Assembly: GCF_000349325.1 (NCBI RefSeq)
Contig: NC_020504.1
Coordinates: 6,854,053 to 6,918,052 of the forward strand
Source: Streptomyces davaonensis JCM 4913
Lineage (GTDB): Bacteria > Actinomycetota > Actinomycetes > Streptomycetales > Streptomycetaceae
Reading direction: 5' to 3'
Length of the DNA: 64,000 bases
Made by a program: the position numbers and the translations under genes. This document shows, in pieces, positions 1-21,432 of the stretch. The number at the start of each line of letters is the position of its first letter. The first letter of the stretch is position 1. A model generated the notes under the pieces. The model saw nothing but the letters and a program-made list of their open reading frames with translations. It ran no database searches and had not been told where the DNA came from.

Positions 1-530
1 TGGCCGGGCTGGGTAGCGAACGGCTGGGAGCGGAAGCGGTCTCGGTGACCGAGCTGTTCCTTGAGGCCCTGCACGCGCAGGTCACGCCAGGCACCAAGCC
101 GACCTGGGAGACGCTGCTCAAGGCGGACGCCGCCGAGCCCGGTTCGAAGGGTGCGGTGCGGTTCGCGGAGTACGCGCGCACGGCGTGGGGCGCGGTCGAG
201 CCACGGATCGCCGAGCTGCTGGGCAACGGTGGCGGCGGTGGCGAGGCCGGTCCTGTGCTGCTGACGGAGGCCGGGGTGTTCGCGCGGTACGACGCGATGG
301 GTGTCCTGCACCGGCTGGCGTCGGCGGCCCGGCGAGGCGGGCGGGGGCTGTGGCTCCTGGTCCCGCAGGCCGACCCGTCGCGCGAGCCCCGGCTCGGGCA
401 GGTGGCCGTCCCGTATCAGGCCGGCCTGGGGGAGTGGATTCAGCTTCCGGACACATGGGTGGGCAACGCCCATCGCGGGTCCGGCGAGGGTATGGCTAGT
501 GCCAGTGGTGTCGAGGGAGACGCGAAGTGA
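1..530 (+). CDS. pglW: PglW C-terminal fragment (BREX type 2 Ser/Thr kinase), 5' end outside window
   Basis: The frame is open from base 3 to the TGA at 528-530 with no stop, so this is the tail of a longer gene entering from the left. The visible part (about 175 residues) has no kinase motifs; those would lie upstream. Identity rests on context: it sits directly in front of pglX, and the two overlap by GTGA (GTG of pglX at 527), as pglW-pglX pairs do in Pgl/BREX-2 loci. PglW is the large serine/threonine kinase of the system. The end of the fragment (VPYQAGLGEWIQLPDTWVGN) resembles C-terminal tails of large BREX-2 proteins as I recall them. An in-frame GTG at 45 exists but is unlikely to be a real start. 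Confidence 0.7.
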   Translation, partial: AGLGSERLGAEAVSVTELFLEALHAQVTPGTKPTWETLLKADAAEPGSKGAVRFAEYARTAWGAVEPRIAELLGNGGGGGEAGPVLLTEAGVFARYDAMGVLHRLASAARRGGRGLWLLVPQADPSREPRLGQVAVPYQAGLGEWIQLPDTWVGNAHRGSGEGMASASGVEGDAK

Positions 531-3500
531 TCGACCGCAAAGCTCTGTTGAACGACCTGAAGCAGCAGGTCAAGGCGGTCGAGACCGACCTGGGGCGCCA
601 GGTGAAGGCGCTGCGGGATGTCAGCGCGCGGCTGAGGGCCGAGTACGACCAGGCACGCAAGCTCGGGCGTACGGCGGCGACGTGGACCTCGTGGCTGGAC
701 GAGCGCGTCACGCAGGTCGCGGTGGCGTGGGTCCTGGGCACTGTGTTCGTGCGGTTCTGCGAGGACAACCGGCTGATCCCGGAGCCGTACCTGACGGGGC
801 CGGAGGGTGACCGGCGGGAGTTGGCGGAGTCCCGGTACGACGCGTACGTGGAGTCGGACGAGGACCCGACGTACCGGGGGTGGCTGGAGAAGGCGTTCGA
901 GGAGTTGGGGCAGGGGCAGGCGGGGCGGCTGCTGTTTGATAAGCGGCATAACCCGCTTTACCAGGTTCCGCTGTCGCATGACGGTGCGCGGGAGCTGGTC
1001 GAGTTCTGGCGGGGGAGGGATGAGGCGGGTGTCCTCGTCCACGACTTCACCGACCCGCTGAACGAGGACGGCACGGAGGGGTGGGACACGCGGTTCCTGG
1101 GTGACCTGTACCAGGACCTGAGCGAGGCCGCCCGGAAGACGTACGCGCTGCTCCAGACGCCGGAGTTCGTGGAGGAGTTCATCCTCGACCGGACGATGAA
1201 TCCGGCGGTGCGGGAGTTCGGGTACGAGGGCCTGAAGATGATCGACCCTACGTGCGGGTCGGGGCACTTTGTGTTGGGGGCTTTTTGGCGGCTGGTGAGG
1301 TTGTGGGGGGAGGAGCAACCAGGCAAGGACATGCATGAAAGGGTGCGGGCTGCGCTGGACTCGGTGCACGGCGTGGACGTCAACCCGTTCGCGGTGGCCA
1401 TCGCACGGTTCCGGCTACTGGTTGCGGCTATGGCAGCAAGTAGCCTCGGGACGCTCGGGGAGGCTGCAAAGTACGAGTGGCCGATCCACTTGGCAGTAGG
1501 TGACTCGCTGATTAAGGCTCGGCAACTGGAGCTCACGTTGGGAGGAGATGAGGAGGGCGCTGAGGACCCGCTGGCCTCGTTCGCCTATGCCACAGAGGAC
1601 GTGCATGAACACCCCGGAATTCTGCAACAAGGACGCTATCACGTCGTAGTGGGGAACCCGCCGTACATCACGGTTACGGATGCGAAGCTTAATGAGCTCT
1701 ATCGGGAGTTGTATGACGCCTGCGGTGGGACGTATGCCCTCTCGGTTCCGTTTGCGCAGCGGTTCTTTGAGCTAGCGAGGCGTGGGGATGCTAACGGACA
1801 CGGTTACGGGCTGGTCGGACAGATTACTGCAAACTCCTTCATGAAGCGCGAGTTTGGCACAAAGCTGATCGAGAACTATTTTCGGGACCGCGTTGAACTA
1901 ACGGAGGTCGTCGACACTTCTGGTGCCTACATCCCTGGTCACAGTACGCCAACTGTCATCTTGGTCGGTAAGCGACGGGAAGGCAGCCGGCGTTCGGCCG
2001 TAATCCGCACTGTCCGCAGCGTTCAAGGCGAGCCTGTAACGCCAGAAAATGGCGAGGATGGCTTGGTGTGGAACGCAATTGTGGATCAGGTTGATGCCCC
2101 TGACTCACTGAGTAAATGGGTATCCGTAGGAGATCTAGACCGGAGTCGATATTTTGGAAGGCAACCATGGATTCTTGCTGATGGCGGTCTTGAGATGGTT
2201 GAGCAGTTGAATGCTGCGTCTTCTCGACGGTTGGGGCACCTCGTTGAATCCATCGGACGAACCACTAAATCTGGCGCTGACGACATCTTCTTCCTCCCTA
2301 ACGGGGCGTCTGCTCGGCGCCTAGGGCTTGTTGAATCAGTTCGGGATCTCGTAACTGGCGCTAACGTGCGAGATTATGAGATCAGAGATGCTGTCGATCT
2401 TTGCAATCCGTATGTGGATGCGCAGAATCGAGAGGCATTGCCGGAGCAGTCTATGCCGGTGTCGCGGTATCTTTGGCTCGCGCGTGTCATTCTTTCTGCG
2501 CGTAGACTCTTTGGTAAAACCATCACCGCGCATGGCCGACCTTGGTATGTGCATCTTGAGAGCTACCCGAGCAAACTCACTTCAAGAATCGGGATCACTT
2601 TTCCTTTCGTTGCTACTCACAATCATTTCGTGCTTGACCGTGAAGCTAGACTGTTCGGCAGTACGGCGCCGATAATTAAATTGGGGGATGGGGCAAGCGA
2701 AGAAGAGTATCTCCAGTTGCTTGGAGTGCTCAACAGTTCCACGGCTGGCTTCTGGCTTAAGCAGGTAAGCCACAGCAAGGGGAATGCGACGGCAGCCAGT
2801 GGGATGCCCGATCAGCCTTGGTCCTGGAATTATGAGTTCACTGGCACCAAGTTGGAAGAGTTTCCGCTACCTGTAGAATATCCGGTCCGTCTCGCTAATG
2901 CCCTCGACAGCTTCGCCCAGCAGCTCACCTCCACTGCCCCGGCAACCGTGGTGACTGAGTCGACGCCTACTGCGACCGTTCTTCGTGAAGCGCGTGCTGC
3001 TTGGGAGTCTGCCCGTGCTCGCATGATCGCCCTTCAGGAGGAGCTGGACTGGCAGGTCTATTCGATCTATGGCCTACATTCCGAGGATCTACGCATTCCG
3101 CACCATGAGGTGCCCGAGATCATGGCAGGGCAGCGTGCGTTTGAGATCCTTCTCGCTCGGCAGGTCGCGAGGGGTGAAGTTTCCACAAAGTGGTTCACGC
3201 ACCACGACCACATCCCTATAACAGAAATCCCCGATCACTGGCCTGCCCCGTATCGTGAAATGGTTCAGAAACGCATCGACGTCATCGAGTCGAACCGTGC
3301 CATCGGTATGATTGAGCGCCCCGAATACAAGCGTCGCTGGGCTACCGAAGGTTGGGACGCGCTCCAGGAGAAGGCCCTCCGCTTCTGGCTGCTCGACCGT
3401 ATGGAGAACCGCGAACTCTGGTTCGACGAGAACAGGCAGCCAGCTATCCTTACCCTGGCCCGGCTCACCGACGTGCTCTCCCGTGACGAGGAATTCGTCT

Positions 3501-4135
3501 CCGTCGCCAAGCTTTACGCGCCCCGCAAGGAGCTTGCTAAGGTCGTCTCCGAGCTGATCACTGATGAGCACGTGCCTTTCCTCTCCGCGCTGCGCTACAA
3601 GGCCTCCGGGCTCAAGAAGCGAGCGGACTGGGAAGAGGTCTGGGACCTCCAGCGCAAGGAGGACGCCGCCCCGGACGAGCCTGCCAAGCGGAAGATCCGG
3701 GACTCCATCCCTGTGCCGCCGAAGTACACCTCGGCCGACTTTCTCCGCCCCTCCTACTGGCGGGCGCGCGGCAAGCTCGACGTGCCCAAGGAGCGGTTCG
3801 TCTCCTACGGGCAGACCAACGCCGCTACCCCCGAGCTGTACGGGTGGGCCGGCTGGGACCACCGAGAGCAGGCGCAGGCCCTCGCCACGTACTTCACCAA
3901 CACCGCGCTGTCCACCGAGGAGATCACGCCGTTCCTCGCCGGCCTGCTGGAACTCCAGCCGTGGCTGTCGCAGTGGCACAACGAGTTCGACATGGTCTTC
4001 AGCGGCTCCCCGGCGGACTTCTTCGCCGGTTACCGCCAGCAGAAGCAGGGCGAGCACGGACTCACGGACGACGATCTCCGTAAGTGGCAGCCTCCGGCCG
4101 CAACCCGAGGTCGCCGCGCCGCAGTGAAGAAGTAG
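527..4135 (+). CDS. pglX: BREX-2 adenine-specific DNA methyltransferase PglX
   Basis: A 1202-residue N6-adenine methyltransferase that in BREX marks host DNA and is needed for defence. The SAM-binding motif I (DPTCGSG) is at residues 240-246 and the catalytic NPPY at 377-380; the length fits PglX. The GTG start overlaps the pglW stop (GTGA), implying translational coupling. Coordinates about 1400-3250, which follow motif I and include the region expected to hold target recognition, are visibly poorer in G+C (53% by hand count at 2641-2700, against 72% at 11041-11100 in pglY) and use many A/T-ending codons. This suggests recombination or recent acquisition of that segment. Runs G5, T5 and G6 lie at about 1276-1310 just after motif I. 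The 3' end overlaps the convergent HATPase gene by 74 bp. Confidence 0.95.
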   Translation: MIDRKALLNDLKQQVKAVETDLGRQVKALRDVSARLRAEYDQARKLGRTAATWTSWLDERVTQVAVAWVLGTVFVRFCEDNRLIPEPYLTGPEGDRRELAESRYDAYVESDEDPTYRGWLEKAFEELGQGQAGRLLFDKRHNPLYQVPLSHDGARELVEFWRGRDEAGVLVHDFTDPLNEDGTEGWDTRFLGDLYQDLSEAARKTYALLQTPEFVEEFILDRTMNPAVREFGYEGLKMIDPTCGSGHFVLGAFWRLVRLWGEEQPGKDMHERVRAALDSVHGVDVNPFAVAIARFRLLVAAMAASSLGTLGEAAKYEWPIHLAVGDSLIKARQLELTLGGDEEGAEDPLASFAYATEDVHEHPGILQQGRYHVVVGNPPYITVTDAKLNELYRELYDACGGTYALSVPFAQRFFELARRGDANGHGYGLVGQITANSFMKREFGTKLIENYFRDRVELTEVVDTSGAYIPGHSTPTVILVGKRREGSRRSAVIRTVRSVQGEPVTPENGEDGLVWNAIVDQVDAPDSLSKWVSVGDLDRSRYFGRQPWILADGGLEMVEQLNAASSRRLGHLVESIGRTTKSGADDIFFLPNGASARRLGLVESVRDLVTGANVRDYEIRDAVDLCNPYVDAQNREALPEQSMPVSRYLWLARVILSARRLFGKTITAHGRPWYVHLESYPSKLTSRIGITFPFVATHNHFVLDREARLFGSTAPIIKLGDGASEEEYLQLLGVLNSSTAGFWLKQVSHSKGNATAASGMPDQPWSWNYEFTGTKLEEFPLPVEYPVRLANALDSFAQQLTSTAPATVVTESTPTATVLREARAAWESARARMIALQEELDWQVYSIYGLHSEDLRIPHHEVPEIMAGQRAFEILLARQVARGEVSTKWFTHHDHIPITEIPDHWPAPYREMVQKRIDVIESNRAIGMIERPEYKRRWATEGWDALQEKALRFWLLDRMENRELWFDENRQPAILTLARLTDVLSRDEEFVSVAKLYAPRKELAKVVSELITDEHVPFLSALRYKASGLKKRADWEEVWDLQRKEDAAPDEPAKRKIRDSIPVPPKYTSADFLRPSYWRARGKLDVPKERFVSYGQTNAATPELYGWAGWDHREQAQALATYFTNTALSTEEITPFLAGLLELQPWLSQWHNEFDMVFSGSPADFFAGYRQQKQGEHGLTDDDLRKWQPPAATRGRRAAVKK

Positions 4136-7593: not shown

Positions 7594-7886
7594 GCGGCAT
7601 CCCGCTTCGGCGCCCGCGGCTGCTCACCGGTCTCGTGGGCGCCGGTCCGCTCGGCGTGCTGGCGCTCCAGGTCGCGGTGCTCGGCCTCGACCTCGGCCAG
7701 TTCCGCCTCGGTGATCTCCCCGTACTCGGACTCCCACCACCCCACCGCCTCGCGCAGACGCTCCCGCTCCCGCTGGCGCTCTATGGCGTGCGTGACGTAG
7801 CGGCTGAAGCCGCCGGGGCCGACCTCGGCCCGGATGGCCTCGGCGAGCTCCTCGGGAAGCGTCACGGTGTACTTCTTGGTTGCCAT
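7590..7886 (-). CDS. Ribbon-helix-helix antitoxin (VapB/CopG-like)
   Basis: A 98-residue protein that begins MATKKYTVTLPEELAEAI, a typical ribbon-helix-helix beta strand (KYTVTLP) followed by helices, then a charged helical tail rich in E and R that would bind and neutralise the PIN toxin. The ATG at 7886 was preferred over an upstream in-frame start because the fold begins immediately and two CCATACC repeats flank the start. It overlaps the toxin gene by 4 bp. It probably autorepresses its own promoter. Confidence 0.82.
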   Translation of the reverse strand: MATKKYTVTLPEELAEAIRAEVGPGGFSRYVTHAIERQRERERLREAVGWWESEYGEITEAELAEVEAEHRDLERQHAERTGAHETGEQPRAPKRDAA

Positions 7887-7901
7887 ACCATCGACCATAC
7901 C
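7883..7901. promoter_or_regulatory. Candidate antitoxin operator (two CCATACC direct repeats)
   Basis: CCATACC occurs at 7883-7889 and again at 7895-7901, a 12-bp period, covering and just upstream of the antitoxin start codon. Ribbon-helix-helix repressors usually bind short direct or inverted repeats about one helical turn apart, so this is a plausible autoregulatory site. It also lies within 115 bp of the pglY start on the other strand. Assignment is inference from position and repeat spacing. Confidence 0.35.
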
Positions 7902-7996
7902 GAGGGTCTGATCAGGCAGCCAACCAGCAGCAGACATCTCCACACGATCGAGTACGAGCGGCGGCCGAGGCCGCCAGAAGGAGAGCGAGACCGGTA

Positions 7997-10900
7997 ATGG
8001 CCCAGCCCCTCCTCCGCGATGTCATCGACATCAAGAAGAAGATCTCCACTTCCGACTTCGTGCTGTCGCTCGCCGAGGCGACGACCCCGGAAGGCGCCCA
8101 GAACGCGCTCAAGGACTACGTCGTCACCGAGCGGCTGCTGGAGAACTTCGACGAGGCGCTGGCCCTCATCAAGTCCTCGCTGGACGGACACCGCTCCAAG
8201 GCTGCCTACCTGCACGGCTCGTTCGGTTCCGGTAAGTCGCACTTCATGGCGGTGCTCTACGCGCTGCTCAGCGGCGACTCGGCCGCCCGTGCCCGTACCG
8301 AGTTCGACCCGGTGCTGACCAAGCACGAGTGGCTCACCACGGACGGCAAGAAGTTCCTGCTCGTGCCGTACCACATGCTCGGCGCGAAGGCCCTCGAACA
8401 GCGGGTGCTCGGCGGGTACGTCACGCACGTCAAGAAGCTGCACCCGGACGCCCCGACCCCGCAGGTGTACCGGACCGACTCCCTCTTCGCCGACATCCGG
8501 GCCAACCGCTCCAACTTCGGCGACGAGGCAGTCATCCGCCGCCTGGGCGGCGGTGACGCGGGTGACGACGAGACGGACGAATGGGGCGAGGGCTTCGCCT
8601 GGACCCCGCAGCTCCTGGACGCCGCGCTCGCTGCCGAGGAGGACCACGAGGGGGGCACGCCTCTCGACCTCCGCAACCCCTCCACCCCGGCCGAGCTGCG
8701 CGCCAAGCTGGTCAACGACGCCGCAACGAACCTCTTCCCCGGCTTCGCCCAGAACGCCGCCGAGAACGAGCACGGCTTCATCTCCCTGGACGCCGGTCTG
8801 TCCGTCATCGCCGAGCACGCCAAGTCGCTCGGCTACGACGGCCTGATCCTTTTCCTGGACGAGCTGATTCTCTGGCTCGCGACCCTCATCCACGAGCAGA
8901 AGTTCGTGGCCCGCGAGGCCAGCAAGATCACGAACTTCGTCGAGGGCGGCGACGCCCGACGTGCCATTCCCGTGGTGTCGTTCATCGCCCGCCAGCGCGA
9001 CCTGCGGGAACTCGTGGGCGAGGAGGTGTCCGGCGCGGCGGAAGCCTCCATCCAGGACACCCTGAACCTGGCCTCCGGCCGCTTCGACAAGATCACCCTG
9101 GAGGACCGCAACCTCCCGCAGATCGCCCACGCGCGCATCCTCAAGCCGAAGGACGCCGAGGCGGAGCGGCTCGTCGACGCGGCCTTCGAGCAGACCAAGC
9201 GGGTCGGCACCCAGGTCTGGGACACCCTCCTAGGCTCGGAGAAGGGCACGACCGGCGCGGACGCGGAGTCGTTCCGGCTGACGTACCCCTTCTCGCCGGC
9301 GTTCATGGACACCCTCGTCCACATCTCGTCCGCGCTGCAGCGTTCCCGTACCGGTCTCAAGCTGATGGGCCAGCTGCTCGCCGACCACCGCGACGAGATT
9401 CGGCTCGGCCAGCTCATCCCCGTCGGCGACCTCTACCCGGTGATTGCGGAGGGCGGCGACAAGCCGTTCACCGACAGCCTGAAGGTCGTCTTCGAGGCCG
9501 CCGACAAGCTCTACAAGACCAAGCTGCGGCCCTACCTCCTCAGCTCGTACGACATCACCGAGGACGACGTCAGGCAGTACCGCACCAGCCCCGAGACCGT
9601 CACCGACCCGCAGCGCGCCAACCGCTGCCGGATGTTCATCGGCGACAACCGGCTCGTGTGCACCCTGCTGCTGTCCGCGCTCGCGCCCAGCGTGCCCTCG
9701 CTGGCCGAGCTGACCATCCGGCGGCTCGGCGCGCTGAACCACGGGTCCGTGCTCGCGCCCATCCCGGGCGCCGAGGTCGGGATCATCAAGAACAAGGTCG
9801 CCGAGTGGGCGGCCAGGTTCCCCGAGATCAAGGAGACCGGCACCGACGCCAACCCCGGCGTACGGCTGGAGCTGTCCGGCGTCGACGTCGACTCGGTCAT
9901 CGCCAACGCTCAGGTCAACGACAACCCCGGCAACCGGGTCGCCCTCGCCCGGCGCCTGCTGTCCGAGGAACTGGGCGTCGAGCACGGGCAGTTGAGCGAC
10001 CAGCTCGGCTTCACCTGGCGCGGTACTTCCCGTACCGCCGAGATCGTGTTCGGCAATGTCGCCGACGAGGACGAGCTGCCCGATCACGACCTGATGCCGC
10101 AGGAGGACGGCCGCTGGCGGATCGCCATAGACCTCCCCTTCGACGAGGGCGAGTGGGGGCCGGTCGACGACGTCAACCGCATCCAGCGGCTGCGTGAGCG
10201 CCAGCAGGGCGAGCGGTCCCGTGTCGTCGCCTGGCTGCCCGCGCACCTGTCCGCCCAGCGCTTCGCCGACTTCCGGCGGCTCGTCGTCATCGACAAGGCC
10301 CTCGCCGACGAGCATCGCTTCGACACCCAGTACGCCGGCCACCTCAACGCCGACAACCGCAGCCGCGCCAAGGGGCTCCTCGAAACCCAGCGCGAGGCCC
10401 TGCTCAAGCAGGTCAAGGGTGCCTTCAAGCAGGCATACGGGCTCGCCCAGAAGCAGCCGGCCGACGTCGTACCCGACTTCGAGGACCATCTTGTCCCGCT
10501 GCCCGACGTGGACGGACTCACCCTGGCCTTCGGGCAGAGCCTGCGCGACGGCATCCGGCACGTCGCGGGCAAGCTGCTCGCCCACCAGTACCCTGCGCAC
10601 CCCGACCTCGACCCCGACGGGAGCGGTGTCGCCGTCAAGGCGGCCGACACCAAGAAGGTGTTCGCGCACGTCCGGGACGCCGCCGAGGCGCGTGACGGGC
10701 GGGTGGAGGTCCCGGCCGCCGACCGCAGACTCATGCAGCGGATCGCGGGGCCGCTGCGCCTCGGGCAGCAGAAGGAGGCGTACTTCGAGCTGTCCCGCTA
10801 CTGGGCCGACCACTTCCGCCAACTCGCCAGCGCCCGGGGCGTCACCGGGGATCTGTCCCTGATCACGCTGACTGACTGGACTGACAAGCCCGACCCGCGC

Positions 10901-11881
10901 GGCCTGCCCGACTTCCTCGCGCGGCTCGTCGTCGCCGCGTTCGCCGAGATGGACGATCGGGTGTGGGTGCGCGGCGGCACCGTCCTCGATCCCGCGCCCG
11001 AAGTGTCCGCGATCAAGGACCATGACGCGCTGCGCAGCCAGCCGCTGCCCACCGAGTCCGACTGGGACACCGCACGGCAGCGCTTCGAGACGGTCTTCGG
11101 GGCGAAGGCGCCGGCCCTGCGGCGCGGCCGGATGGTCAACCAGTTTGCCCGCCAGATCATCGAGGCTGCCCGCGCCCACCGCGACTACGCGGCCGACCTG
11201 GTGCACCAACTGGACGCCCACGCCTCCTTCCTCGGCCTCGACCAGACTGCCGACACCGGACGCCTCGCCCTCGCCCGGCGCTCCCTGCAGCTCCTGGACG
11301 CCGTCACGGCGGAGGCCGGCAAGGGTGCGGCCGGGGCGAAGAAGACCGTGGAGGCCCTCGCCTCCTTCGACCTGGGCCACACGAGTGCCGACCGATATGG
11401 GACCTCCATCAAGCAGGCCCGCAGCGTTGCGGAAGCGGTCGCCTCCGCCCCCTGGAGCACCCTCGAACTCGCCGCCGGACTCGGCCCCGAGGGCGCGGCG
11501 CTGCTCGACTCGCTGCGCAACGTCGCCCGTGACGACCAGCGCACCGCGGACCTGCGCGACGCACTGGCCCGCACCCAGCGTGAGGTCGTCGCCCTGGCGA
11601 AGCGTGCCCAGGCCGCCGCCACCCTGCCGCCCGCACCCGTCGCGCCGCAGCCCACGGCCGACGACCTGTCCCTGAACACGTCGACCAGTGACCCGCGCAT
11701 CCCGTACACCTCACAGGAGCCTGCCGCCCCGGCCTCCTCCGGCAGCGGCTCGGCGCGAACGGCCGGTGGCCGCCGTACGACCGTGGCACGCGCCGCCGCC
11801 GACCTCCAGGCGGAACTGTCCGAACTGGCCGCCCGCCACCCCGACGCGACCATCGAGATCACCTGGAAGGTCGTGGAATGA
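7997..11881 (+). CDS. pglY: BREX-2 ATPase PglY (BrxC-like)
   Basis: A 1294-residue P-loop ATPase, the BREX-2 equivalent of BrxC. Walker A (GSFGSGKS) is at residues 74-81 and Walker B (LILFLDEL, Asp288-Glu289) follows; the long remainder is helical with a Pro/Ser/Thr-rich linker near the C-terminus (about 1210-1260). The ATG at 7997 ([15 protein letters not shown]) was chosen because the open frame upstream to 7880 is not protein-like and Pgl/BrxC proteins begin with a similar short lead-in. The stop overlaps pglZ by ATGA. It cooperates with PglX and PglZ in the BREX complex that blocks phage replication. Confidence 0.95.
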
Positions 11882-14793
11882 CGGACACCGTCGCCGCCGC
11901 TCCGGGCGCCGTCCGGCTGAACACCGCGACTGTCACCCAGTACCTGTCCTCGCAGTCCTCCCTAGCCGCCTCCCTGACCGCTGACGGCGGGGGCAGGCGC
12001 CGGGTGGTGCTGCTGCGGTCCGCGCCCCAGTGGGACGGGCCGGCCGAACCAGCCTGGGGCGAGGGCCGCACGGCCGGTGTCGCGGTGGCGCCGTCGCCGC
12101 TCGCGGTGCACGAACTCGTCCTCGACCATCTGGCGGGCCGCCGCCGCGGCCCCGCCGTGCTGGTCGTCCTCACCGACCGGGAACAGGGCGAACTCGACCC
12201 GGCGATCCTCGCCCGCGTCCACAAGCTGCGCGTCGACACCGTCGACAGCTGGGACGTCGTCCGCGAGGCGTTCGGCGCCCGGCAGATCGACCCCCGGCTC
12301 AAGGACGTCAACTGGGCCGCCGAGGCGCTTCTCGACGCGACCCCGCCCGGCGGCTGGCCCGCCGTCCCTGGCGGCTGGCTGTCCCGCCAGTACGCCCTCA
12401 CCGCGCTCGCCCAGCGCCGCCTGCGCCTGGGCCGCTACGACACCGAGGACGGCCCGCGCCGCCCGGGCGACGACCGGCTCGACGCCGGGGCCCTGCTGCA
12501 CTGGTCGACCCGGCCCGGCGCCCCCGAACGGTTCCTCACCCTGCGCGGCCCCGAGCGGGCGGGACTGACCGCCTTCCTCGGTGAGGAGGACCAGGCGGGC
12601 CTCGCCGGACGAGCCCTGCTCGCCCTCGTCGACGCCGAACGCGGCGCGGACGCCGCCGCCTTCGGCCTGGTGTGCACCGCCCTGTGGAGGCATGCCGCCC
12701 CCGCCCCCGAGACGTACCAGGCCCGGGGGCGCGCCGAACGCTACTTCGGGGACCGGCCTCCGGCACTGGGTGAACAGCTCGACGCCCTGGTGACCGTCTT
12801 CGGGCAGACCGCCGAGGAGTACGTCACCGCGTTGCTGGCGGCCGGGCACCGCTCCGGTGGAGGCGAAGCCGATCAGGCCCGCGAGGCACGCCGCACCACC
12901 GGCACCGTGCTGGACCGCGCGGCCGTACTGGCCCGCCAGTTCGGCGCGGAACACGCCGTCGCGGCGAGCCCCGTTCTGCGCGGTGGTCTCGACGCCCGGT
13001 TCACCGCGGTCGGCCAGGCCCTTGCGTCGGGTGACACGGCCGCGGTCGGGGACGCCGTACGCCTCCTGCAGGACCATCGGCTCGCCGTGGAACCCGAGGA
13101 GTCGGCCCGTGTCGAACGTGCCCGCATGGGAGAGCGCCTCGCCCGCTGGCTGGCCACTGACCCGTCCGCCGACGCCCTCACCGTCGCCGACGCCATACAG
13201 CGGCACGTCGACGAGACCGGCTGGGTGGATCTCGCCCTGGAGCACATCGAAGCGGGCGGCGACCGGGACCCCGTTCTCAAGGCCGCCTACGACACGCTCG
13301 GCACCCGCGTCAGGGTCCGCCGTCGGCAGATCGACGCGTCGTTCGCCGCAGACCTGGGCTCCTGGACGCAGGCCGGTACCCAGCCGGGGCGCATGCTCAC
13401 CGTGGAGACCTTCCTCGACCGCGTGGTCGGACCGCTCGTCCAGCGGGGGGAGGAACGACGGGTTCTGCTGCTCGTGCTCGACGGCATGAGCGCGGCCATA
13501 GCGAACGAACTGGGGGAGGAACTGCGCAGTTCCTGGGCGGAGTTCGATCCCCTTCCCGTGGAGGGTGCACCGCTGCGGCGGGCGATGGCCGCCGCCCTGC
13601 CCACCGTGACGGCCGTGTCCCGCACCTCGCTCTTCGCGGGCACCCTGATGAAGGGGACCCAGGCTGACGAGAAGCGGCTCTTCCCCGCGCTGAAGCTGTG
13701 GGGCGGGGCCCCGGCCGCCGTCTTCCACAAGGACGACCTGCGCACCGAGACCGCGGGCGACACCTTCGGCCCGGCGCTCACGGAAGCGCTCGCCGACGGC
13801 AGGACCCATGTCGCCGTCGTCCTCAACGCCATCGACGACCGGCTCGCCAAGGAGCAGAAGCTCGGCGACGGCGCCTGGCGGGTCGACGACGTACCCGGCC
13901 TGCGCGACCTGCTGAGAGCGGCGGTGGAGCAGGGCATGGCGGTCCTCCTCACCAGCGACCACGGTCACGTCGTCGACCGGCACGGCACGAAGGTCGACAC
14001 CGCGGCCGATCCCGCGTCCGCACGCCACCGCCTGCCCGGGGCGGGACCACTCGCCGAACGGGAGATCACCCTCACCGGACCGCGCGTCGTGTGGCCCGAG
14101 CCGGGCGCTTCCGTCGTCGCGCTGTGGGACGCCGACTCCCGCTACACCGCCCTCAAGGCCGGCTACCACGGCGGGGCCTCCCTCGCCGAGGTCACCATCC
14201 CCGTGCTCGCCTTCCTGCCCTTCGGCGCTGAACCCCCGAAGGGCTGGCGGGAACTGGGCGACCAGAAGCCGACCTGGTGGGTTCCGGAGGAGGCCGGCAG
14301 GCCGCTCCCGGACGAGCGCGCGGCTCAGACGGCCGCCGCGGCCGCGGCCGCGAAGAAGGCGACCGCGAAGCCCCGGAAGAAGCAGCCCGACCTCGACACG
14401 CTGCCGGAGGCGCTCTTCGACGTGGAGCTGACGGCCGGGGGAGAAGATGCCCTGCTCACGCCGACGGTCGTGTCGAGGACCGAGACGCTCGTCGCGACCC
14501 TGCTCGACTCGGAGACGTACCAGGCCCAACTGGGCGGTCTGGCACGCAAACCCCAGCAGGAGCAGGTCCACAAGGCACTGGCCGCGCTGCTCGACGCGGG
14601 TGGCACCCTGCCCGTGACCGCGCTCGCCCAGCGTGCCGGCATGCCCACCACCCGAGGCGACGGCTTCGCCGCCGTCCTGCGACAGCTCCTCAACTACGAC
14701 GGCGTACAGGTGCTGGAAACCCTGCCGGACGGACGCACGCTGCGGCTCCATGAGCCGCTGCTGCGCGAGCAGTTCGCCCTCCGAGCGGGCTGA
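11878..14793 (+). CDS. pglZ: BREX-2 phosphatase-superfamily protein PglZ
   Basis: A 971-residue PglZ, the hallmark BREX protein with an alkaline-phosphatase-superfamily fold. The metal-binding first aspartate is in LLVLDGMS (Asp535), and the SDHGHV motif (Asp694, His695, His697) sits near the end of the domain. An Ala/Lys-rich linker at about residues 815-840 precedes a C-terminal winged-helix-like region. ATG 11878 overlaps the pglY stop (ATGA), so pglYZ is one translationally coupled unit. A strong hairpin follows the stop. In BREX, PglZ is required for defence; a metal-dependent hydrolase role is inferred from the fold. Confidence 0.95.
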
Positions 14794-14801
14794 CAGCCTT
14801 C

Positions 14802-14834
14802 GGGGTGCCTCTGGCGTTCGTGTCGAGGCACCCC
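14802..14834. terminator. Hairpin between convergent pglZ and CBS-HEPN gene
   Basis: GGGGTGCCTC (14802-14811) pairs perfectly with GAGGCACCCC (14825-14834) around a 13-nt loop. It lies in the 47-bp gap between the pglZ stop and the stop of the opposite-strand gene, so it probably ends transcription from both sides. There is no long T run, as is common in high-G+C actinobacteria. Confidence 0.7.
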
Positions 14835-14840
14835 GCCGCT

Positions 14841-15887
14841 TCAGGCCACGAACGCCCTCAGCACCTTCGCGAACGTCGTCAGCTCGTCGATCATCTCCTG
14901 CGGCAACGGCTTCTCGTCGAAGTGGGCGATCCGGTTGCGAATGTCCTTCACTCGCTTCAGGCGGCCGATGAACTGTTCCCTGGGCATGTTGGGCCATTTC
15001 AGGGCTTCCCAGTTGGCGTCGGCGCGTTCGGCCAGCGACGTCTTCGTCTGGTCGCCGTCCAGGAGTTTCAGATAGTCGCCGAACATCAGGTCGGAGACCT
15101 GGCCGGTGCGGTGCTCGGGCTTCTTGTTCGTCTGGACGGCCTTGATGGTCTCCTCGTCCAGTGCCGCACCCAGACAGCGGCGCAGCAGGGACTCGATCTC
15201 CCCGACGATGAAGAAGGGCCGCGCCGCGCCCTCGAAGCGGTCGGTGACGTCCGCGGCGGTAACGATGCCCGAGAGACAGCCGTCGTCGCCTCGGACCAAG
15301 AGATACCCGTGTTCGCGGATGACCGGCAGGGCGGAGAAGAACTCCTGGCGGGTGTCGGCGACCGGAAGGGAGTCCTTCTCCATCGCGTTGTCCAGCGTCG
15401 GCTGCTTGCCCGCCTCGTACATCTTGGCGACGGACCCCCAGGTGACCACCCCGTGGATCTGCGCCATGCCGGTGGTCACCGGGACCTGTGCGAGTCCCTT
15501 CGTGCGCATCAGGAACGTGGTCTGGGCCAGGGGCGTACCGGGACCGACGGACACCAGGCCGCGCCGTGCCGACGGAATGTCCCCGAGCAGCAGACGTTGC
15601 GGAAGGGCGGCCGAGGGCAGGGCCTCCTCCGTCTCGTCCGCCTCCACGTCGGCGGGGTCGGCCTGTGCAGGGATGGACGCGAGCGGTACCACGTCGACGT
15701 TGCTGCGCTGGCCGCAGACGGCGAAGTCCGGCAGAGTCGTCAGCCCGGCGTCCGTGAGCGCCTGCGAGATGCGGTGCACCGTCCGGTGGTCGCGGACTCT
15801 GACCTGGAACAGGTCGAGAATGTCCTGTACGGGGACGGTCCTGCCCTTGAGCGCGGCGAGGTCCTGCCCGCTCGGTGTGGTCGTCAT
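14841..15887 (-). CDS. CBS-domain protein with C-terminal HEPN-like RX4H motif
   Basis: A 348-residue protein in three parts. The N-terminal 100 residues are winged-helix-like (VHRISQALTDAGLTTLPDF). A tandem CBS module spans about 105-230 (QVPVTTGMAQIHGVVTWGSV, then GYLLVRGDDGCLSGIVTAAD). The helical C-terminal domain ends with KRVKDIRNRIAHF, in which Arg317-x4-His322 matches the RX4H signature of HEPN ribonucleases. CBS pairs usually bind adenosine nucleotides, so the layout suggests a nucleotide-gated HEPN effector; this is inference. The start overlaps the DUF262 stop by ATGA, so the two proteins are made together, antiparallel to and inside the BREX cluster. I do not recognise a named family for the full architecture. 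Confidence 0.75.
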   Translation of the reverse strand: MTTTPSGQDLAALKGRTVPVQDILDLFQVRVRDHRTVHRISQALTDAGLTTLPDFAVCGQRSNVDVVPLASIPAQADPADVEADETEEALPSAALPQRLLLGDIPSARRGLVSVGPGTPLAQTTFLMRTKGLAQVPVTTGMAQIHGVVTWGSVAKMYEAGKQPTLDNAMEKDSLPVADTRQEFFSALPVIREHGYLLVRGDDGCLSGIVTAADVTDRFEGAARPFFIVGEIESLLRRCLGAALDEETIKAVQTNKKPEHRTGQVSDLMFGDYLKLLDGDQTKTSLAERADANWEALKWPNMPREQFIGRLKRVKDIRNRIAHFDEKPLPQEMIDELTTFAKVLRAFVA

Positions 15888-17719
15888 CGGGCGTCGCCCT
15901 CCGCGAGGTCACGGAGCATGGTCCTCTTGCCCATGGCGGCGTGCACGAGGTCCTGCAACTGCTTGGAACGGTCGTTGTAGAACCGTTCGTAGTTGTTGTC
16001 GCGGAGCGCTTCCGGATCGATGAGGTGGGTGGCGAGTACGTCGTCGAACCACTCGGGGCGCATGTCGGAGGCCGCGACCATGGTGGACAGGTAGGACGAC
16101 GGTGCCCCAGTCATGTCCATCGCCGCGCGGTAGGACAGAGGGGTCTTGTTCACGATGGAGTTGGTGGGCAGGCCCTCACTGTTGCCCCGCCGGAACCAGG
16201 TCTTGGGGAAGATCTGTCGGACGTCCACGCTGTACTCGTCCAGCCTGCCGGGGCTGAGCGGGCTGTCCGTGTGGTGCCAGTCCACCGCCCCTTGCTTGAT
16301 GAGCAGGGCGTAGATGCCCTTGTAGGCGGCGCTGTTGCGGGTGGTGAGGCTGTCGAGACGGTCGGCGAAGAAGAACGCGTCCGTGACGGTGTCGGGTGCC
16401 CGGTCGTCCTGCGCGATCCAAGGGACGAGCTGCTCGACGTCACGGGTGAAGCGGGTCTCGGTGGAGCCGCCGTACATCTCGCCAAGGACCCCGCACCAGT
16501 ACCACTGCTCGGTCCTTTCCTCCGCTCCCAGGCCGTCCAGTGCCGTGTCGAGGATGGCGCGGACGGCCGCGAGCGGGACGAGCTGTGTCTTGTACGGCAG
16601 GTCGTTCGGGCGGACGATGCACTGGCGTTCCAGGAAGTCGCCCACCCAGGCGAAGGCGTCAGCGAGTTTCGGCGCCAGCCGGATGAAGTCGTCCAGCGGG
16701 AGGTCCAGCAGATCCCTGCGCTTGCACGACACCGTCGCCCCGGTGCCCGCCTGCTTCCGCTCCCAGGTGCGTACCAGAGCGATGGACTGCAGGAAGTCGA
16801 TGCTGCTCAGCCCATTCTCGACGCTGCTGTCCAGACGGCCGAACACTGGGTACTTGGCCGCCAGCCCCTGCTTGATCTCCCGCCACACTTCGGGGAGCTG
16901 GTAGTAGTCCCCGGTCCGCTCCACGTACTCGCGATCCCCGGCGTAAGTCGCGGTAAGCAGTTCGAAGACGTTCAGGGGCACACCGCCCGTGTTGACCCGC
17001 TCGAACACCGCGCAGACCGCGTCCATGGAGGTGGACGAGGCCAGCCGGATCATCGGGACCTGGAAGGCACGGATCTGCTGAAGGACCGACTCGTCGAACT
17101 GGCCCCACAGACCCCAGTTCTGGTTCTCGTCCGCCTTGACGTACGACATCATCCACTGGTTCACGCGCTGCGCATCGAAGACGAGATGCAGAGGGAAGAG
17201 ACCGGCTGCGCACTCGCCCTCCGTTGTGCTCAGATCCAGCACAACCGTGCGGTTGAAGTCGGTGCGGAGCACCTTGTCCGCCGGGACGGACAGGATGGCC
17301 TCGTCGCGGTCCACGGACGGGCCGACGGCCTTCGCGATGTCGACGTAGTACCAGCGCTCGATGGGCTTGCCACGGGCGTCCGCGGTTTCCACCGGGGCAT
17401 CCAGCCACAGGGCCTGGAAGAGGGAGGTGAGGCGCTGCTGCCCGTCCAGCAGGAGGAGGTCCGCGGCCGGATCCCCGTCCGGGCGTGCTCCGGTGAGCGT
17501 TCGAGAGCGGAATCGGGTGGCGCCGCCGGTCTGCAACGTCATCACCACGCCGAGCGGATAATCCAGCGTCACTGTCGCGATGATGGCGCGGATCCGGTCG
17601 TCGTCCCACTTCCAGTTCCGCTGGAAATCGGGCAACTGTAAGGAGCCCGATGCCACGTCCGCGAGGACATCTTTCAGCTTCACATTGTCGAGTGCCGCCA
17701 CGTTCGTCCCACTCCCCAC
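15884..17719 (-). CDS. DUF262/DUF1524 GmrSD-like protein
   Basis: A 611-residue protein whose N-terminus carries the ParB/Srx-like DUF262 motifs (LQLPDFQRNWKWDD at 28-40; LLLLDGQQRLTSL with DGQQR at 92-96). GmrS-type proteins use this domain with NTP to recognise modified DNA. The C-terminal part resembles DUF1524, including the segment NSIVNKTPLS, but where nuclease members have His-His before IFP, this one reads DVRQIFPKTW. The His-Me finger therefore looks inactive. GTG 17719 is the longest start; GTG 17703 (VAALDNVKLKDVL), with a good GGGGAG upstream, may be the true one. It is cotranscribed with the CBS-HEPN gene and divergent from brxD. Confidence 0.85.
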   Translation of the reverse strand: MGSGTNVAALDNVKLKDVLADVASGSLQLPDFQRNWKWDDDRIRAIIATVTLDYPLGVVMTLQTGGATRFRSRTLTGARPDGDPAADLLLLDGQQRLTSLFQALWLDAPVETADARGKPIERWYYVDIAKAVGPSVDRDEAILSVPADKVLRTDFNRTVVLDLSTTEGECAAGLFPLHLVFDAQRVNQWMMSYVKADENQNWGLWGQFDESVLQQIRAFQVPMIRLASSTSMDAVCAVFERVNTGGVPLNVFELLTATYAGDREYVERTGDYYQLPEVWREIKQGLAAKYPVFGRLDSSVENGLSSIDFLQSIALVRTWERKQAGTGATVSCKRRDLLDLPLDDFIRLAPKLADAFAWVGDFLERQCIVRPNDLPYKTQLVPLAAVRAILDTALDGLGAEERTEQWYWCGVLGEMYGGSTETRFTRDVEQLVPWIAQDDRAPDTVTDAFFFADRLDSLTTRNSAAYKGIYALLIKQGAVDWHHTDSPLSPGRLDEYSVDVRQIFPKTWFRRGNSEGLPTNSIVNKTPLSYRAAMDMTGAPSSYLSTMVAASDMRPEWFDDVLATHLIDPEALRDNNYERFYNDRSKQLQDLVHAAMGKRTMLRDLAEGDAR

Positions 17720-17884: not shown

Positions 17885-19234
17885 GTGAGCACCCCCGGAT
17901 CCCAGCGCCCCGCACAGGTGAGCGCCGCCCGCCGCCGTACCGTCATCGACGCGCTGCGGCGCGGAGCCGTGCCCGACAGCGGACTCGACCTGCTGGCCAC
18001 CGGACTCGACCGGTTCGAAGCGGCCCAGGACGCGGAACTGGACGCCGTGGCGTCCGGCGGCTCGGTGTTCAAGGCCGTGCGGGGTGAGTACGGGTCTGGC
18101 AAGACGTTCTTCACCCGCTGGCTGGGGGAGCGAGCCAAACGCCGCAACTTCGCCGTGGCCGAGATCCAGATCTCGGAGAACGAGACCCCGCTGCATCGGC
18201 TTGAGACGGTCTACCGGCGGCTCACGGAACGGCTCACCACCTCCAGTTTCCCGCCCAGCGCGCTGCGGCCCGTTGTCGACGCCTGGTTCTACGCCCTGGA
18301 AGAGGACGCCCTCGCGGCCGGCGCGACCGAGGAGGATCTTGCCAGCGAGGTGGAGAAACTGCTCGCCGCACGGCTCGCCGAGGTCTCCCGGCACGCCCCG
18401 TCGTTCGCCACGGCTCTGCGCGGCTACCGGGCCGCCCTCGCGGATGGCGACGAGGCGACCGCTGCGGCCGTCCTGGCTTGGCTCGGCGGTCAACCGCACG
18501 TCGCCGCCTCTGCCCGCCGGACCGCCGGGGTACGCGGCGACCTCGACCACTTCGGTGCGCTCGGGTTCCTGCAGGGTCTCCTCACCGTGCTGCGTGACTC
18601 CGGGCACACAGGGCTGTTCGTCGTCCTCGACGAGGTGGAGACGCTCCAGCGGGTCCGCTCCGACGCCCGCGACAAGGCGCTCAACGCGCTGCGGCAGCTC
18701 ATCGACGAGGTGCACTCGGGCCGCTTCCCCGGCCTCTATCTGGTCATCACGGGCACCCCGGCCTTCTACGACGGTCAGCAGGGCGTGCAGCGGCTGGCCC
18801 CGCTCGCTCAGCGGCTGGCCACCGACTTCACCACCGACACGCGCTTCGACAACCCTCGCGCGGTACAGATCAGGCTTCCCGGCTTCAACCAGGAGTCCCT
18901 GGTAGGACTAGGCCTCACCATCCGTGACCTGTACGCCGGTGCCGCAGAAATGCCCGAGCGCGTGCGAAAGGTCGTCGACGACGCGTATGTCGCCGACCTC
19001 GCGGTGGCCGTCGGCGGGGCGTTGGGCGGGAAGGTCGGGGTGGCCCCCCGGCTGTTCCTGAAGAAACTCGTCGGGGACGTGCTCGACCGTGTGGACCAGT
19101 TCGACGACTTCGACCCCCGCCAGCACTACCGGCTCACCGTCGCCGGCAGCGAACTCACCGACGTCGAGCGGAACCTGGCCGCCACGGTCTTCGGAGATTC
19201 CGCGTCGGCCGATGACATCGACCTGGAGCTGTGA
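17885..19234 (+). CDS. brxD: BREX-2 ATP-binding protein BrxD
   Basis: A 449-residue AAA-type ATPase characteristic of BREX-2 and related subtypes. Walker A GEYGSGKT is at residues 67-74 and Walker B VVLDEVE centres on Asp249-Glu250. ITGTPAFYDG (sensor-like) and RLPGFNQESL follow. The start is GTG at 17885. The stop overlaps the next gene by GTGA, marking a brxD-brxHI operon. The 165-bp gap to the divergent DUF262 gene should hold promoters for both. The protein probably loads or drives the partner helicase. Confidence 0.93.
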   Translation: MSTPGSQRPAQVSAARRRTVIDALRRGAVPDSGLDLLATGLDRFEAAQDAELDAVASGGSVFKAVRGEYGSGKTFFTRWLGERAKRRNFAVAEIQISENETPLHRLETVYRRLTERLTTSSFPPSALRPVVDAWFYALEEDALAAGATEEDLASEVEKLLAARLAEVSRHAPSFATALRGYRAALADGDEATAAAVLAWLGGQPHVAASARRTAGVRGDLDHFGALGFLQGLLTVLRDSGHTGLFVVLDEVETLQRVRSDARDKALNALRQLIDEVHSGRFPGLYLVITGTPAFYDGQQGVQRLAPLAQRLATDFTTDTRFDNPRAVQIRLPGFNQESLVGLGLTIRDLYAGAAEMPERVRKVVDDAYVADLAVAVGGALGGKVGVAPRLFLKKLVGDVLDRVDQFDDFDPRQHYRLTVAGSELTDVERNLAATVFGDSASADDIDLEL

Positions 19235-21432
19235 TGGCGGACGCGGGACTCCCGGCCGGGAAAGACCAGGGTGACGCGGACGCTGACGTACTGGACCGAC
19301 TCGACCCCGTCGTCCTGCATCACATCGTCAACACCCTTGGCTGGCCTGATCTGCGCCCACTGCAGCGGGCGGCGATCACGCCGCTCATGGAGGGACAGGA
19401 CGCCGTACTGCTGGCGCCGACAGCGGGAGGCAAGACCGAGGCAGCCTGCTTCCCCTTGCTTTCGGCGATGACCGAGCAGAATTGGACCGGCACATCCGTG
19501 CTGTACTTGTGCCCTCTCAAGGCACTCCTCAACAACCTGGTCGTCCGAGTCGACTCCTACGCACAGTGGCTGGGGCGACGGGCTGCACTCTGGCATGGCG
19601 ACACCAAGGAATCGCAGCGGCAGCGCATCCGGGCCGAGGCGCCGGAGATCCTGTTGACCACGCCCGAGTCGCTCGAGGCGATGCTGATTGGCGTAAAGAC
19701 CGACCACGCCCGCCTGTTGGGAAGCGTCCGGGCCGTCGTCATCGACGAAGTGCACGCGTTCGCAGGGGATGACCGAGGATGGCACTTGCTCGCCGTGCTC
19801 GAACGGTTGGAGCGGGTCACCGGACGGCCCATCCAGCGCGTCGGGCTCTCGGCGACCGTCGGCAACCCGGCCGAGTTGCTGCACTGGCTGCAAGGCGCGG
19901 GCGCTGGCAGCCGCACCGGTCAGGTGGTCGCGCCTGGAGTGCAGCTGCCGGCCACCGAGGGCAGCAGGCACGGCGACAAGGCGGGTCCTGGGCCGTCCAG
20001 CAGGCCTGCGGGCGCAGTGGAACTCGACTACGTCGGCTCCCTCGACAACGCGGCCAAACTCATTGCGGCGCTTCACAGGGGAGAGAAGCGGCTCGTCTTC
20101 TGCGACTCGCGCCGCCAGGTCGAGGAGTTGGGCGCGGCTCTCCGCACGCGCGAGGTGACTGTCTTCCTGTCCCACGCTTCGCTCTCCGTCGATGAACGCA
20201 CCCGTTCCGAGCAGGCGTTCGCTGAGGCACGCGACTGCGTCATCGTCTCCACTTCAACCCTCGAGCTCGGCATCGACGTCGGTGACCTGGACCGTGTCAT
20301 CCAGATCGACTCACCGGTCTCCGTTGCCTCGTTCCTGCAGCGCATCGGCCGCACCGGCCGGCGTCCCGGCACTGTGCGGAACTGCCTGTTCCTCACCACC
20401 CGCAAGGACACACTGCTGCAGGCGGCGGGCCTGTTGTTGCTGTGGTCGCGGGGCTGGGTGGAACCGGTCGTCCCGCCGCCAGAGCCGCGTCACCTGGTGG
20501 CTCAGCAACTGCTTGCCGTCACCCTGCAACAGCACAAGCTCGGCGACCAGTTGTGGGACCGGCAATGGAACGGCCTCGCCCCCTTCGACAAGTCGGCCGC
20601 CCCCATCCTGCGTTTCCTCACCGATGAGGGCTTCCTCGACAGCGACGGTGGGATGTTGTTCGTCGGCCCCGAGGCCGAACGACGCTTCGGCAAAAGGCAC
20701 TTCATCGAACTCACCGCCTCCTTTACCGCACCTCCGCAGTTCACCGTCCTGTCCGGACGCACGGAGATCGGCCGCACCGACCCGAGCGTACTCACAGAGG
20801 AACGCCCCGGCCCCAGGCGGTTGCTGCTCGGAGGACGCAGTTGGCAGGTCACGTACATCGACTGGCTGCGCAAACGCGTCTTCGTCGAGCCGGCCGACGG
20901 CGGCGGAATCGCCAAGTGGATGAACGGCGGCGTCGCCGGGCTGTCGTACGCGCTGACGCGTGCCATGCGCGAGGTGCTGCTGGGCACGGCCCCGCCGATC
21001 TCCCTCACCCGGCGTGCCGAGGCGTGCCTGGCCGAACAGCGCGAGAGCGACGCACCTGACACCGTCCATCCGGGCGGCACGTTGATCACGCGCGTCGGCT
21101 CCGATGTCCGTTGGTGGACCTGGGCCGGCTACCGCGCCAACGCCACGCTGGCCGCCACCCTCCAGTCGGTCACCGACCCTCTGCAACGACCCACCGACAG
21201 CTGGCTGCGTCTACGCGAGAACCTCACCCCGGCCCACTGGCGTGCGGCACGTGACAACGTCGGCGAGAACCTCGTCCTGCCTGACGTGGACCGCCGGGCC
21301 GTACGCGGCCTGAAGTTCTCCGCTGCCGTCCCGGAACGCCTCGCTGTGGCCACGGTGGCGGCCCGCTTGGCCGACTTCGAGAGCGCTCGCTTGGTGCTCG
21401 GGGAGCCAGCGCGCTTTGAGTACGACGGCTGA
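19231..21432 (+). CDS. brxHI: BREX-2 Lhr-like DEAD/DEAH helicase BrxHI
   Basis: A 733-residue superfamily 2 helicase. Motif I APTAGGKTE is at 62-70, motif II DEVH at 172-175, motif III SAT follows in VGLSATVGNPAEL, and motif VI reads QRIGRTGRRPG. An Lhr-like extension with DUF-type C-terminal sequence follows. The first codon is GTG 19231, overlapping the brxD stop, with an ATG immediately after it (19234) that could equally be used. It completes the BREX-2 gene set pglW, pglX, pglY, pglZ, brxD, brxHI. Confidence 0.93.
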   Translation: MMADAGLPAGKDQGDADADVLDRLDPVVLHHIVNTLGWPDLRPLQRAAITPLMEGQDAVLLAPTAGGKTEAACFPLLSAMTEQNWTGTSVLYLCPLKALLNNLVVRVDSYAQWLGRRAALWHGDTKESQRQRIRAEAPEILLTTPESLEAMLIGVKTDHARLLGSVRAVVIDEVHAFAGDDRGWHLLAVLERLERVTGRPIQRVGLSATVGNPAELLHWLQGAGAGSRTGQVVAPGVQLPATEGSRHGDKAGPGPSSRPAGAVELDYVGSLDNAAKLIAALHRGEKRLVFCDSRRQVEELGAALRTREVTVFLSHASLSVDERTRSEQAFAEARDCVIVSTSTLELGIDVGDLDRVIQIDSPVSVASFLQRIGRTGRRPGTVRNCLFLTTRKDTLLQAAGLLLLWSRGWVEPVVPPPEPRHLVAQQLLAVTLQQHKLGDQLWDRQWNGLAPFDKSAAPILRFLTDEGFLDSDGGMLFVGPEAERRFGKRHFIELTASFTAPPQFTVLSGRTEIGRTDPSVLTEERPGPRRLLLGGRSWQVTYIDWLRKRVFVEPADGGGIAKWMNGGVAGLSYALTRAMREVLLGTAPPISLTRRAEACLAEQRESDAPDTVHPGGTLITRVGSDVRWWTWAGYRANATLAATLQSVTDPLQRPTDSWLRLRENLTPAHWRAARDNVGENLVLPDVDRRAVRGLKFSAAVPERLAVATVAARLADFESARLVLGEPARFEYDG

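Follow-up and report, generated by a model that had tools for sequence, protein, structure and literature searches.

What do two overlapping genes do when they sit in the middle of a bacteriophage exclusion (BREX) type 2 cluster, on the strand opposite to it? This question is raised by a locus in a 64,000-nucleotide stretch of DNA from Streptomyces davaonensis JCM 4913, which was analysed as a whole and is referred to as the window. The first gene of the pair (15884..17719, minus strand) is an open reading frame (ORF) with a GTG start that encodes a DUF262 protein of 611 amino acids (GmrSD_N, PF03235; a ParB/Srx-like nucleoside triphosphatase, NTPase), while the second (14841..15887, minus strand) has an ATG start and encodes a CBS-HEPN protein of 348 amino acids that is a relative of DS-11. 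In line with the original prediction for this DNA, the two ORFs overlap by ATGA at 15884..15887 on the minus strand and are located between pglZ and brxD, and family models identified the cluster as BREX-2. The 'opposite-strand' wording of that prediction holds relative to the BREX genes but not for the two genes relative to each other, as both are on the minus strand and antisense to BREX. The overlap would allow translational coupling of the two genes. We favour, with somewhat better than even confidence, the explanation that they form a two-gene anti-phage cassette composed of a DUF262 sensor or regulator and a CBS-HEPN RNase effector. This explanation builds on the gene pair itself, the fold families and motif states of its products, the recurrence of the pair and the congruent histories of its genes.

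Judging from the alignments, the most telling feature of the locus, which the original prediction had missed, is that the DUF262 protein has kept its NTPase motif and lost the His-His dyad of its HNH site. Pfam GmrSD_N (DUF262, PF03235) matched residues 15-259 with E=5.9e-25, and this gene was the only PF03235 match at E<=0.001 in the 9.56-Mb host genome. The predicted DGQQR motif of the NTP site is indeed intact at residues 92-96 (17432..17446, minus strand). The C-terminal half of the protein is alignable with that of relatives carrying D-I-H-H-I-F-P...N, but its HNH/DUF1524-like core at residues 499-533 (16121..16225, minus strand) is degenerate and reads D-V-R501-Q502-I-F-P...R-A-A, where the intact relatives read D-I-H-H-I-F-P...R-T-N. 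A profile scan of the window protein gave no GmrSD_C or HNH match up to E=1, and weak, below-cut-off matches of GmrSD_C or HNH_4 at this core were seen in three of seven unpaired relatives and in none of three paired ones. A PDB sequence search with the DUF262 protein alone returned nothing up to E=1, and an AlphaFold2 model based on 16 Streptomyces sequences was of unusable quality (pLDDT 44.8).

The loss of the dyad follows the pairing closely. For this comparison, proteins with identical last 150 residues were merged, which reduced the paired set from 53 to 50 and the unpaired set from 26 to 25, and a DUF262 protein was regarded as unpaired when there was no CBS match in its flanking sequence, which covered 1.5 to about 7 kb per side. 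Among these aligned proteins, the His-His dyad was present in none of the 50 distinct paired proteins versus 24 of the 25 unpaired ones. The paired proteins carried RQ in its place in 41 cases, RM in four, RL in two, and RH, RY or CQ in one case each. Likewise, the Asn following the dyad was retained in 1/50 paired versus 24/25 unpaired proteins, and DGQQR was retained in every protein that covered the motif (48 paired, 23 unpaired). The sole unpaired protein lacking the dyad (G687, L183:5884-7971) is encoded by a broken gene with a degenerate HNH site; like the split gene of G740, it was kept in this count and omitted from the DUF262 tree described below. In BrxU, the DHIYP-motif mutations D474A and H475A are reported to abolish DNA cleavage and phage resistance while NTP hydrolysis and the ATP-driven shift from dimer to monomer are kept (PMC8565348). 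By motif position, the equivalents of D474 and H475 would be R501 and Q502 of the window protein. Since the BrxU mutants keep NTP hydrolysis, loss of the HNH motif need not abolish sensing. The DUF262 protein of the window is probably no longer able to cut DNA. Six comparisons among closer relatives gave a ratio of nonsynonymous to synonymous substitution rates (dN/dS) of 0.11-0.23 for the HNH-like domain, and four distant comparisons gave 0.28-0.33. This domain is thus still under purifying selection, which argues that it was kept for another role. As an active HNH site of the DHIYP type, which marks a type IV enzyme, appears to be absent from the DUF1524-like half, the identity of a plain type IV enzyme was rejected.

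The second protein can be classified as a divergent DS-11 relative, and not as a new kind of protein, on the basis of family models and alignment. The DS-11 model NF053863 matched it with E=3.3e-68 over model positions 2-305 of 305, and its 230.1 bits fell short of the cut-off of 260; other proteins scored 219.6 (L030), 252.3 (L180), 285.6 (L120, a paired protein from genome G380) and 404.9 bits (E. coli WP_000257686.1). As in DS-11, a CBS module precedes a HEPN domain with RN-x3-H. In a scan of the phylum, NF053863 matched in 255 of 296 genomes, mostly to other CBS-domain proteins, and among the matches listed only three places exceeded 200 bits, the window's own included. Pfam CBS matched residues 102-155 (E=6.8e-8), and a profile built from ten relatives matched solved CBS pairs over profile positions of about 99-205. 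The CBS (Bateman) module spans residues of about 99-220 (15228..15593, minus strand) and contains GIVTxxD (T210, D213); the HEPN domain follows at residues of about 221-348 (14844..15227, minus strand). Its catalytic motif, R317-N318-x3-H322 (14922..14939, minus strand), agrees with the R-x4-6-H motif of the HEPN superfamily and consists of the very residues that had been named as an RX4H motif. RN-x3-H was found in all 71 aligned proteins (43 paired, the window's included, and 28 solo proteins without a DUF262 neighbour), an alignment from which the frameshifted L024 and L119 were excluded. In the structural comparison the best rows were HEPN proteins, while Foldseek gave no match at E<=0.001 for the CBS-HEPN model. 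The earlier HEPN assignment is therefore supported by the family match, the invariant motif and the best structural rows.

DS-11, a one-gene system, has been validated as an anti-phage protein in E. coli, the defence being abolished by mutation of either the CBS nucleotide contact Y157 or the HEPN catalytic residues, and its authors infer that an undiscovered adenine derivative is the activator (PMC13092281). Within GIVTxxD, T210 was present in 42 and D213 in 39 of the 43 paired proteins, and both were present in all 28 solo proteins. To locate the position of Y157, we used E. coli WP_000257686.1, whose residue 157 is Tyr and which we take to be the DS-11 protein itself. This position is occupied by Leu132 in the window protein and by an aromatic residue in only 16/43 paired proteins versus 27/28 solos. 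Because this aromatic residue is mostly lost in the paired proteins, their nucleotide gating may be altered, perhaps as the DUF262 protein took over control.

The neighbourhood survey proposed along with the prediction showed that the pair is conserved. All 31 loci found via the CBS protein have a DUF262 gene directly in front (L011 is cut by a contig end). A CBS search in 295 Streptomyces genomes gave 38 rows, 24 of them at >=40% identity and 14 at 27-32%. Of the closer 24, 23 adjoin a DUF262 gene at >=55% identity (the G439 locus being truncated by a contig end), and the other (G323) is a fragment of 69 residues; this fragment, that of G335 and the split gene of G311 were not counted as pairs. 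In L121, open frames of 605 and 374 amino acids make up an intact pair. The two collections share some genomes, L118 being from the same genome as L023 and L151 from that of L022. Among 246 genomes of the class, the pair was found in four genomes of one other genus (family f85), with 41-42% identity for the CBS and 53-56% for the DUF262 proteins and again with loss of the HNH dyad. The CBS protein is longer in two of these genomes (469 and 533 amino acids) and was not called by a simple gene finder in the other two.

Solo CBS-HEPN proteins were encountered in Streptomyces and E. coli as well as on plasmids and viral contigs. None of the 14 distant Streptomyces solos had a DUF262 gene beside it in the 10.9-15 kb read around each, in the sense of a phmmer match to the window protein, which a very distant DUF262 gene could escape; for E. 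coli, the absence of DUF262 beside a solo means that no gene there is so annotated. The existence of such solos, together with the description of DS-11 as a one-protein system (PMC13092281), would suit the alternative that the CBS-HEPN protein works on its own, like DS-11 in E. coli, with the DUF262 protein only regulating expression or serving as a separate defence protein. We consider this quite unlikely in view of the strict adjacency, the matching trees of the two genes and the retention of a dyad-less partner. As DS-11 is defined by one gene and the DUF262 partner is constant here, the identity of a plain DS-11 was rejected.

The histories of the two genes are congruent. The DUF262 tree has 49 rows, and its 26 paired ones fall on one side of a single branch with a support of 100/100. 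The CBS tree has 53, of which the 25 paired ones do so with 99/100, and the sub-groups match between the trees. Since each paired set forms one group, pairing and loss of the HNH dyad coincide on one branch. This coincidence suggests a functional replacement, but it represents a single event, in which either pairing or loss may have come first. For the whole DUF262 and whole CBS genes, dN/dS was 0.10-0.23 in the six closer comparisons; for the whole CBS gene it was 0.11-0.23 in these and 0.31-0.57 in the four distant ones, the latter a rough estimate given the high dS. The pair is genuine, conserved and subject to selection, and its recurrence in all 31 loci and the low dN/dS of both genes argue that it is not a product of chance. 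Broken copies do occur, with a stop in the DUF262 gene of L023/L118 and a frameshift in the CBS gene of L024 and L119. In addition, a CBS gene remnant corresponding to query residues 199-240 was found between pglZ and brxD of another BREX-2 locus (L099:1918-2037), which is a case of decay of the cassette. These broken copies and the lost dyad could be taken to mean that the pair is a non-functional passenger, a decayed restriction gene that drags its neighbour along. Against this stand the low dN/dS values that the closer comparisons gave for both genes and for the HNH-like domain, and the retention of DGQQR and RN-x3-H throughout, so that we regard it as scarcely credible.

Another alternative is a toxin-antitoxin-like arrangement, in which a toxic CBS-HEPN RNase is held inactive by a bound DUF262 protein and is freed by phage attack on that protein or by nucleotide-driven release from it; the DUF262 protein would then serve chiefly as an inhibitor rather than as a sensor of DNA. 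The gene order, with the DUF262 gene first and the overlapping HEPN gene second, would fit this arrangement, as would the common use of HEPN RNases as toxins (PMC3710099) and the purifying selection on a nuclease-less DUF262 protein, as expected for a binding partner. Yet a protein of 611 amino acids with an intact NTPase motif exceeds the needs of an inhibitor, all 14 distant Streptomyces solos do without a DUF262 match in the stretches read, and in one draft genome, of S. clavifer, the DUF262 gene has an in-frame stop while the CBS-HEPN gene is open. We therefore hold this arrangement to be unlikely.

The position of the pair also raises the question of whether it belongs to BREX itself. In the window, the pair is flanked on its left by pglZ (11878..14793, plus strand; NF033446, 1010 bits), which is convergent with the CBS-HEPN gene across 47 bp, and on its right by brxD (17885..19234, plus strand; NF033438, 659 bits), which is divergent from the DUF262 gene across 165 bp. 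This setting is common, as the pair is flanked by pglZ and brxD on opposite sides in 28 of the 31 loci, with gaps of up to about 5 kb; of the remaining three, L011 has only pglZ, L009 neither gene and L023 a brxD fragment. For 16 of the 23 Streptomyces pairs, the distance to brxD is at most about 1.2 kb. A further pair is 5.4 kb from pglX (G496), one is beside a brxD fragment (G532) and that of G439 is cut by the contig end, while for four others (G394, G570, G380 and G381) no BREX-2 core gene was present in the 18 kb read. Similarly, no such gene was among those called in 17-19 kb around the four f85 pairs. Conversely, only 16 of 63 brxD-bearing Streptomyces genomes have the pair beside brxD, with one more (G439) at a contig end, so that the pair lacks the general presence in BREX-2 loci that a core component would have. 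Its frequent location at this junction would be explained if it served BREX-2 as an accessory and modulated the methylation or restriction carried out by PglX, PglZ and BrxD. We consider this improbable, because the pair is antisense to BREX with a divergent intergenic region of its own, because the four Streptomyces pairs and the four f85 pairs just mentioned have no BREX-2 core gene in the stretches read, and because 11 of 20 BREX-2 loci lacking the pair have an empty junction. The identity of a BREX component was rejected on account of the pairs that occur away from BREX.

To characterize the junction, we examined 20 BREX-2 loci that lack the pair, taken from the head of the brxD match list. 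The pglZ-brxD junction was empty in 11 of them, with 59-168 bp between the matched ends, and contained an AIPR/AbiU-like gene of 581-583 amino acids in five (L101:1787-3535, L103:6223-7968, L104, L105 and L107), a label that was checked in Pfam for two, in PADLOC for one of those, and assigned to the other three by the same ORF. The other loci carried a small ORF (two cases, L097:1809-2429 and L098:1973-2494, of 174-207 amino acids without a Pfam match), a gene for a PASTA-domain protein (one) and the above-mentioned CBS remnant (one). The pglZ-brxD junction is thus a cassette slot. HEPN RNases and GmrSD-type enzymes are described as auxiliary effectors in BREX loci in a study of the BREX landscape (PMC12839542). 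The genome of S. davaonensis contains a second BREX-2 cluster (L109, G000:C1:8556800-8565000), whose brxD is 81% identical and whose pglZ-brxD junction is empty (95 bp).

The favoured two-gene cassette might work as follows. The DUF262 protein would descend from a single-chain restriction enzyme like GmrSD or BrxU, of which it kept the NTPase site and a conserved C-terminal domain. Upon infection, it would recognize a feature of the incoming DNA, perhaps of modified DNA left unrestricted by BREX, turn over NTP, change its oligomeric state and, through contact between the two proteins, release or activate the CBS-HEPN RNase. The latter, gated by its own CBS module as proposed for DS-11, would then cleave RNA and halt phage growth, probably at a cost to the cell, which would amount to defence. 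A more specific scenario, for which our confidence is tentative and below even, is that a DUF262-HNH restriction enzyme was turned into a pure sensor after its DNase was lost in one ancestor, and that its verdict is passed on to a captured CBS-HEPN RNase via contact or an adenine nucleotide. The result would be a portable module that couples type IV-like recognition to abortive RNA cleavage, settled in BREX-2 loci, where it would form a further barrier to phages that have got past BREX.

By sequence, the parts of the pair are of known kinds, the CBS-HEPN protein resembling DS-11 and the DUF262 protein resembling GmrSD and BrxU; what is new, to go by the literature searched, is that an effector of the DS-11 type is constantly accompanied by a DUF262 protein that lost its nuclease dyad. 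The likeness to DS-11 extends over the whole length, including the CBS module and the C-terminal HEPN domain with RN-x3-H, but DS-11 is a single gene, whereas the window locus has a DUF262 gene in front and Leu132 at the place of Y157. A DUF262 part with DGQQR is likewise found in BrxU and GmrSD, the BrxU gene, too, lies within BREX, where it stands between brxC and pglX, and an alignment profile (A4) matched the BrxU structure 7p9k at 1e-9. The window DUF262 protein differs from them in having R501-Q502 for the HNH dyad, a separate CBS-HEPN effector, and an antisense location in BREX type 2. Its best PADLOC matches were PDC-M55C (1.2e-19), HEC-05 (6.7e-13) and NsnA (5.1e-11), of which the first two cover only residues of about 12-109 and NsnA covers 12-261.

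Precedents exist for parts of the combination. Swt1-like HEPN domains, the group to which the weak Pfam match of the window protein belongs, are described in a 2013 HEPN survey as fused either to CBS or to ParB (DUF262) with HNH (PMC3710099). HEPN domains of this group are thus known joined to each partner type, but these cases are single-protein fusions and the DUF262 fusion carries HNH; the relevant passages of the survey mention no CBS-HEPN protein beside DUF262. A review table lists PD-T4-2 under both DUF262 and HEPN (PF18735) without DUF1524, and gives Menshen as DUF262 with an OLD nuclease (PMC10952713). Both resemble the pair in that a DUF262 protein goes with another nuclease output; the window effector has a CBS module. 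The main text of the primary paper names PD-T4-2 once and DUF262 never (PMC9519451), and the name did not come up in our PADLOC scans, the presence of a model of that name in PADLOC-DB being unconfirmed. In SspE, according to the same review, it is the DUF262 NTPase that detects a mark on the DNA and sets off a C-terminal nuclease (PMC10952713); SspE keeps its DUF1524 nickase activity, whereas the corresponding half of the window protein is without the dyad. The word CBS is absent from the main text of the BREX landscape study (PMC12839542), the locus-listing supplements being outside this search. Taken together, the designation as an 'undescribed module' was too strong, because the CBS-HEPN protein is of the DS-11 kind and DUF262-HEPN combinations have precedents, while the exact pair was indeed not found in the literature searched, which did not cover preprints, and a description may exist elsewhere.

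The paired clade offers a natural comparison for the activation of DS-11, as it combines the same kind of effector with an obligate-looking, dyad-less NTPase partner and a drifted adenine-contact residue. The DUF262 partner may be, make or replace the activating signal of DS-11-type proteins. More generally, a restriction-type DUF262 protein can persist beyond the loss of its own nuclease, and DUF262 genes annotated as restriction enzymes should therefore be checked for a neighbouring effector. Two DUF262 relatives with an intact HNH site are located on cyanobacterial plasmids, directly behind the DISARM gene drmC (L072, by record name) or behind a phospholipase D gene in a similar row (L073).

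Some further features of the window concern the gene boundaries and the surroundings of the pair. Because the relatives L009 and L023 carry an ATG at the place of residue 7 of the DUF262 protein, its true start may be the GTG at 17701 rather than that at 17719. Between the convergent ends of pglZ and the CBS-HEPN gene, there is a perfect inverted repeat of 11 bp (14801..14835, arms 14801-14811 and 14825-14835) without a T run, which is a possible bidirectional terminator. The BREX-2 cluster further comprises pglX (527..4135, plus strand; NF033451, 1798 bits), pglY (7880..11881, plus strand; NF047891, 2262 bits) and the helicase gene brxHI (19231..21432, plus strand; PADLOC PDLC02503, 1063 bits), the PglZ, BrxD, PglY and PglX models all scoring above their own cut-offs. 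The ORF at 6070-6948, between pglX and pglY, matched the PADLOC candidate PDC-S30 (7.7e-114) and is a second gene embedded in the cluster, and the ORF at 4853-5707 inside the cluster resembles transcriptional regulators of the Sco1979 family, with 116 bits against a cut-off of 350. Wadjet type II genes follow at 23180-32191, with JetA2 at 23180-25330, JetC2 at 26559-30890 and JetD2 at 30806-32191 (PADLOC, E<=1e-138), so that the BREX cluster is part of a larger defence island. The ORF at 32254-33936 matched the PADLOC candidate PDC-S62 (7.1e-38).

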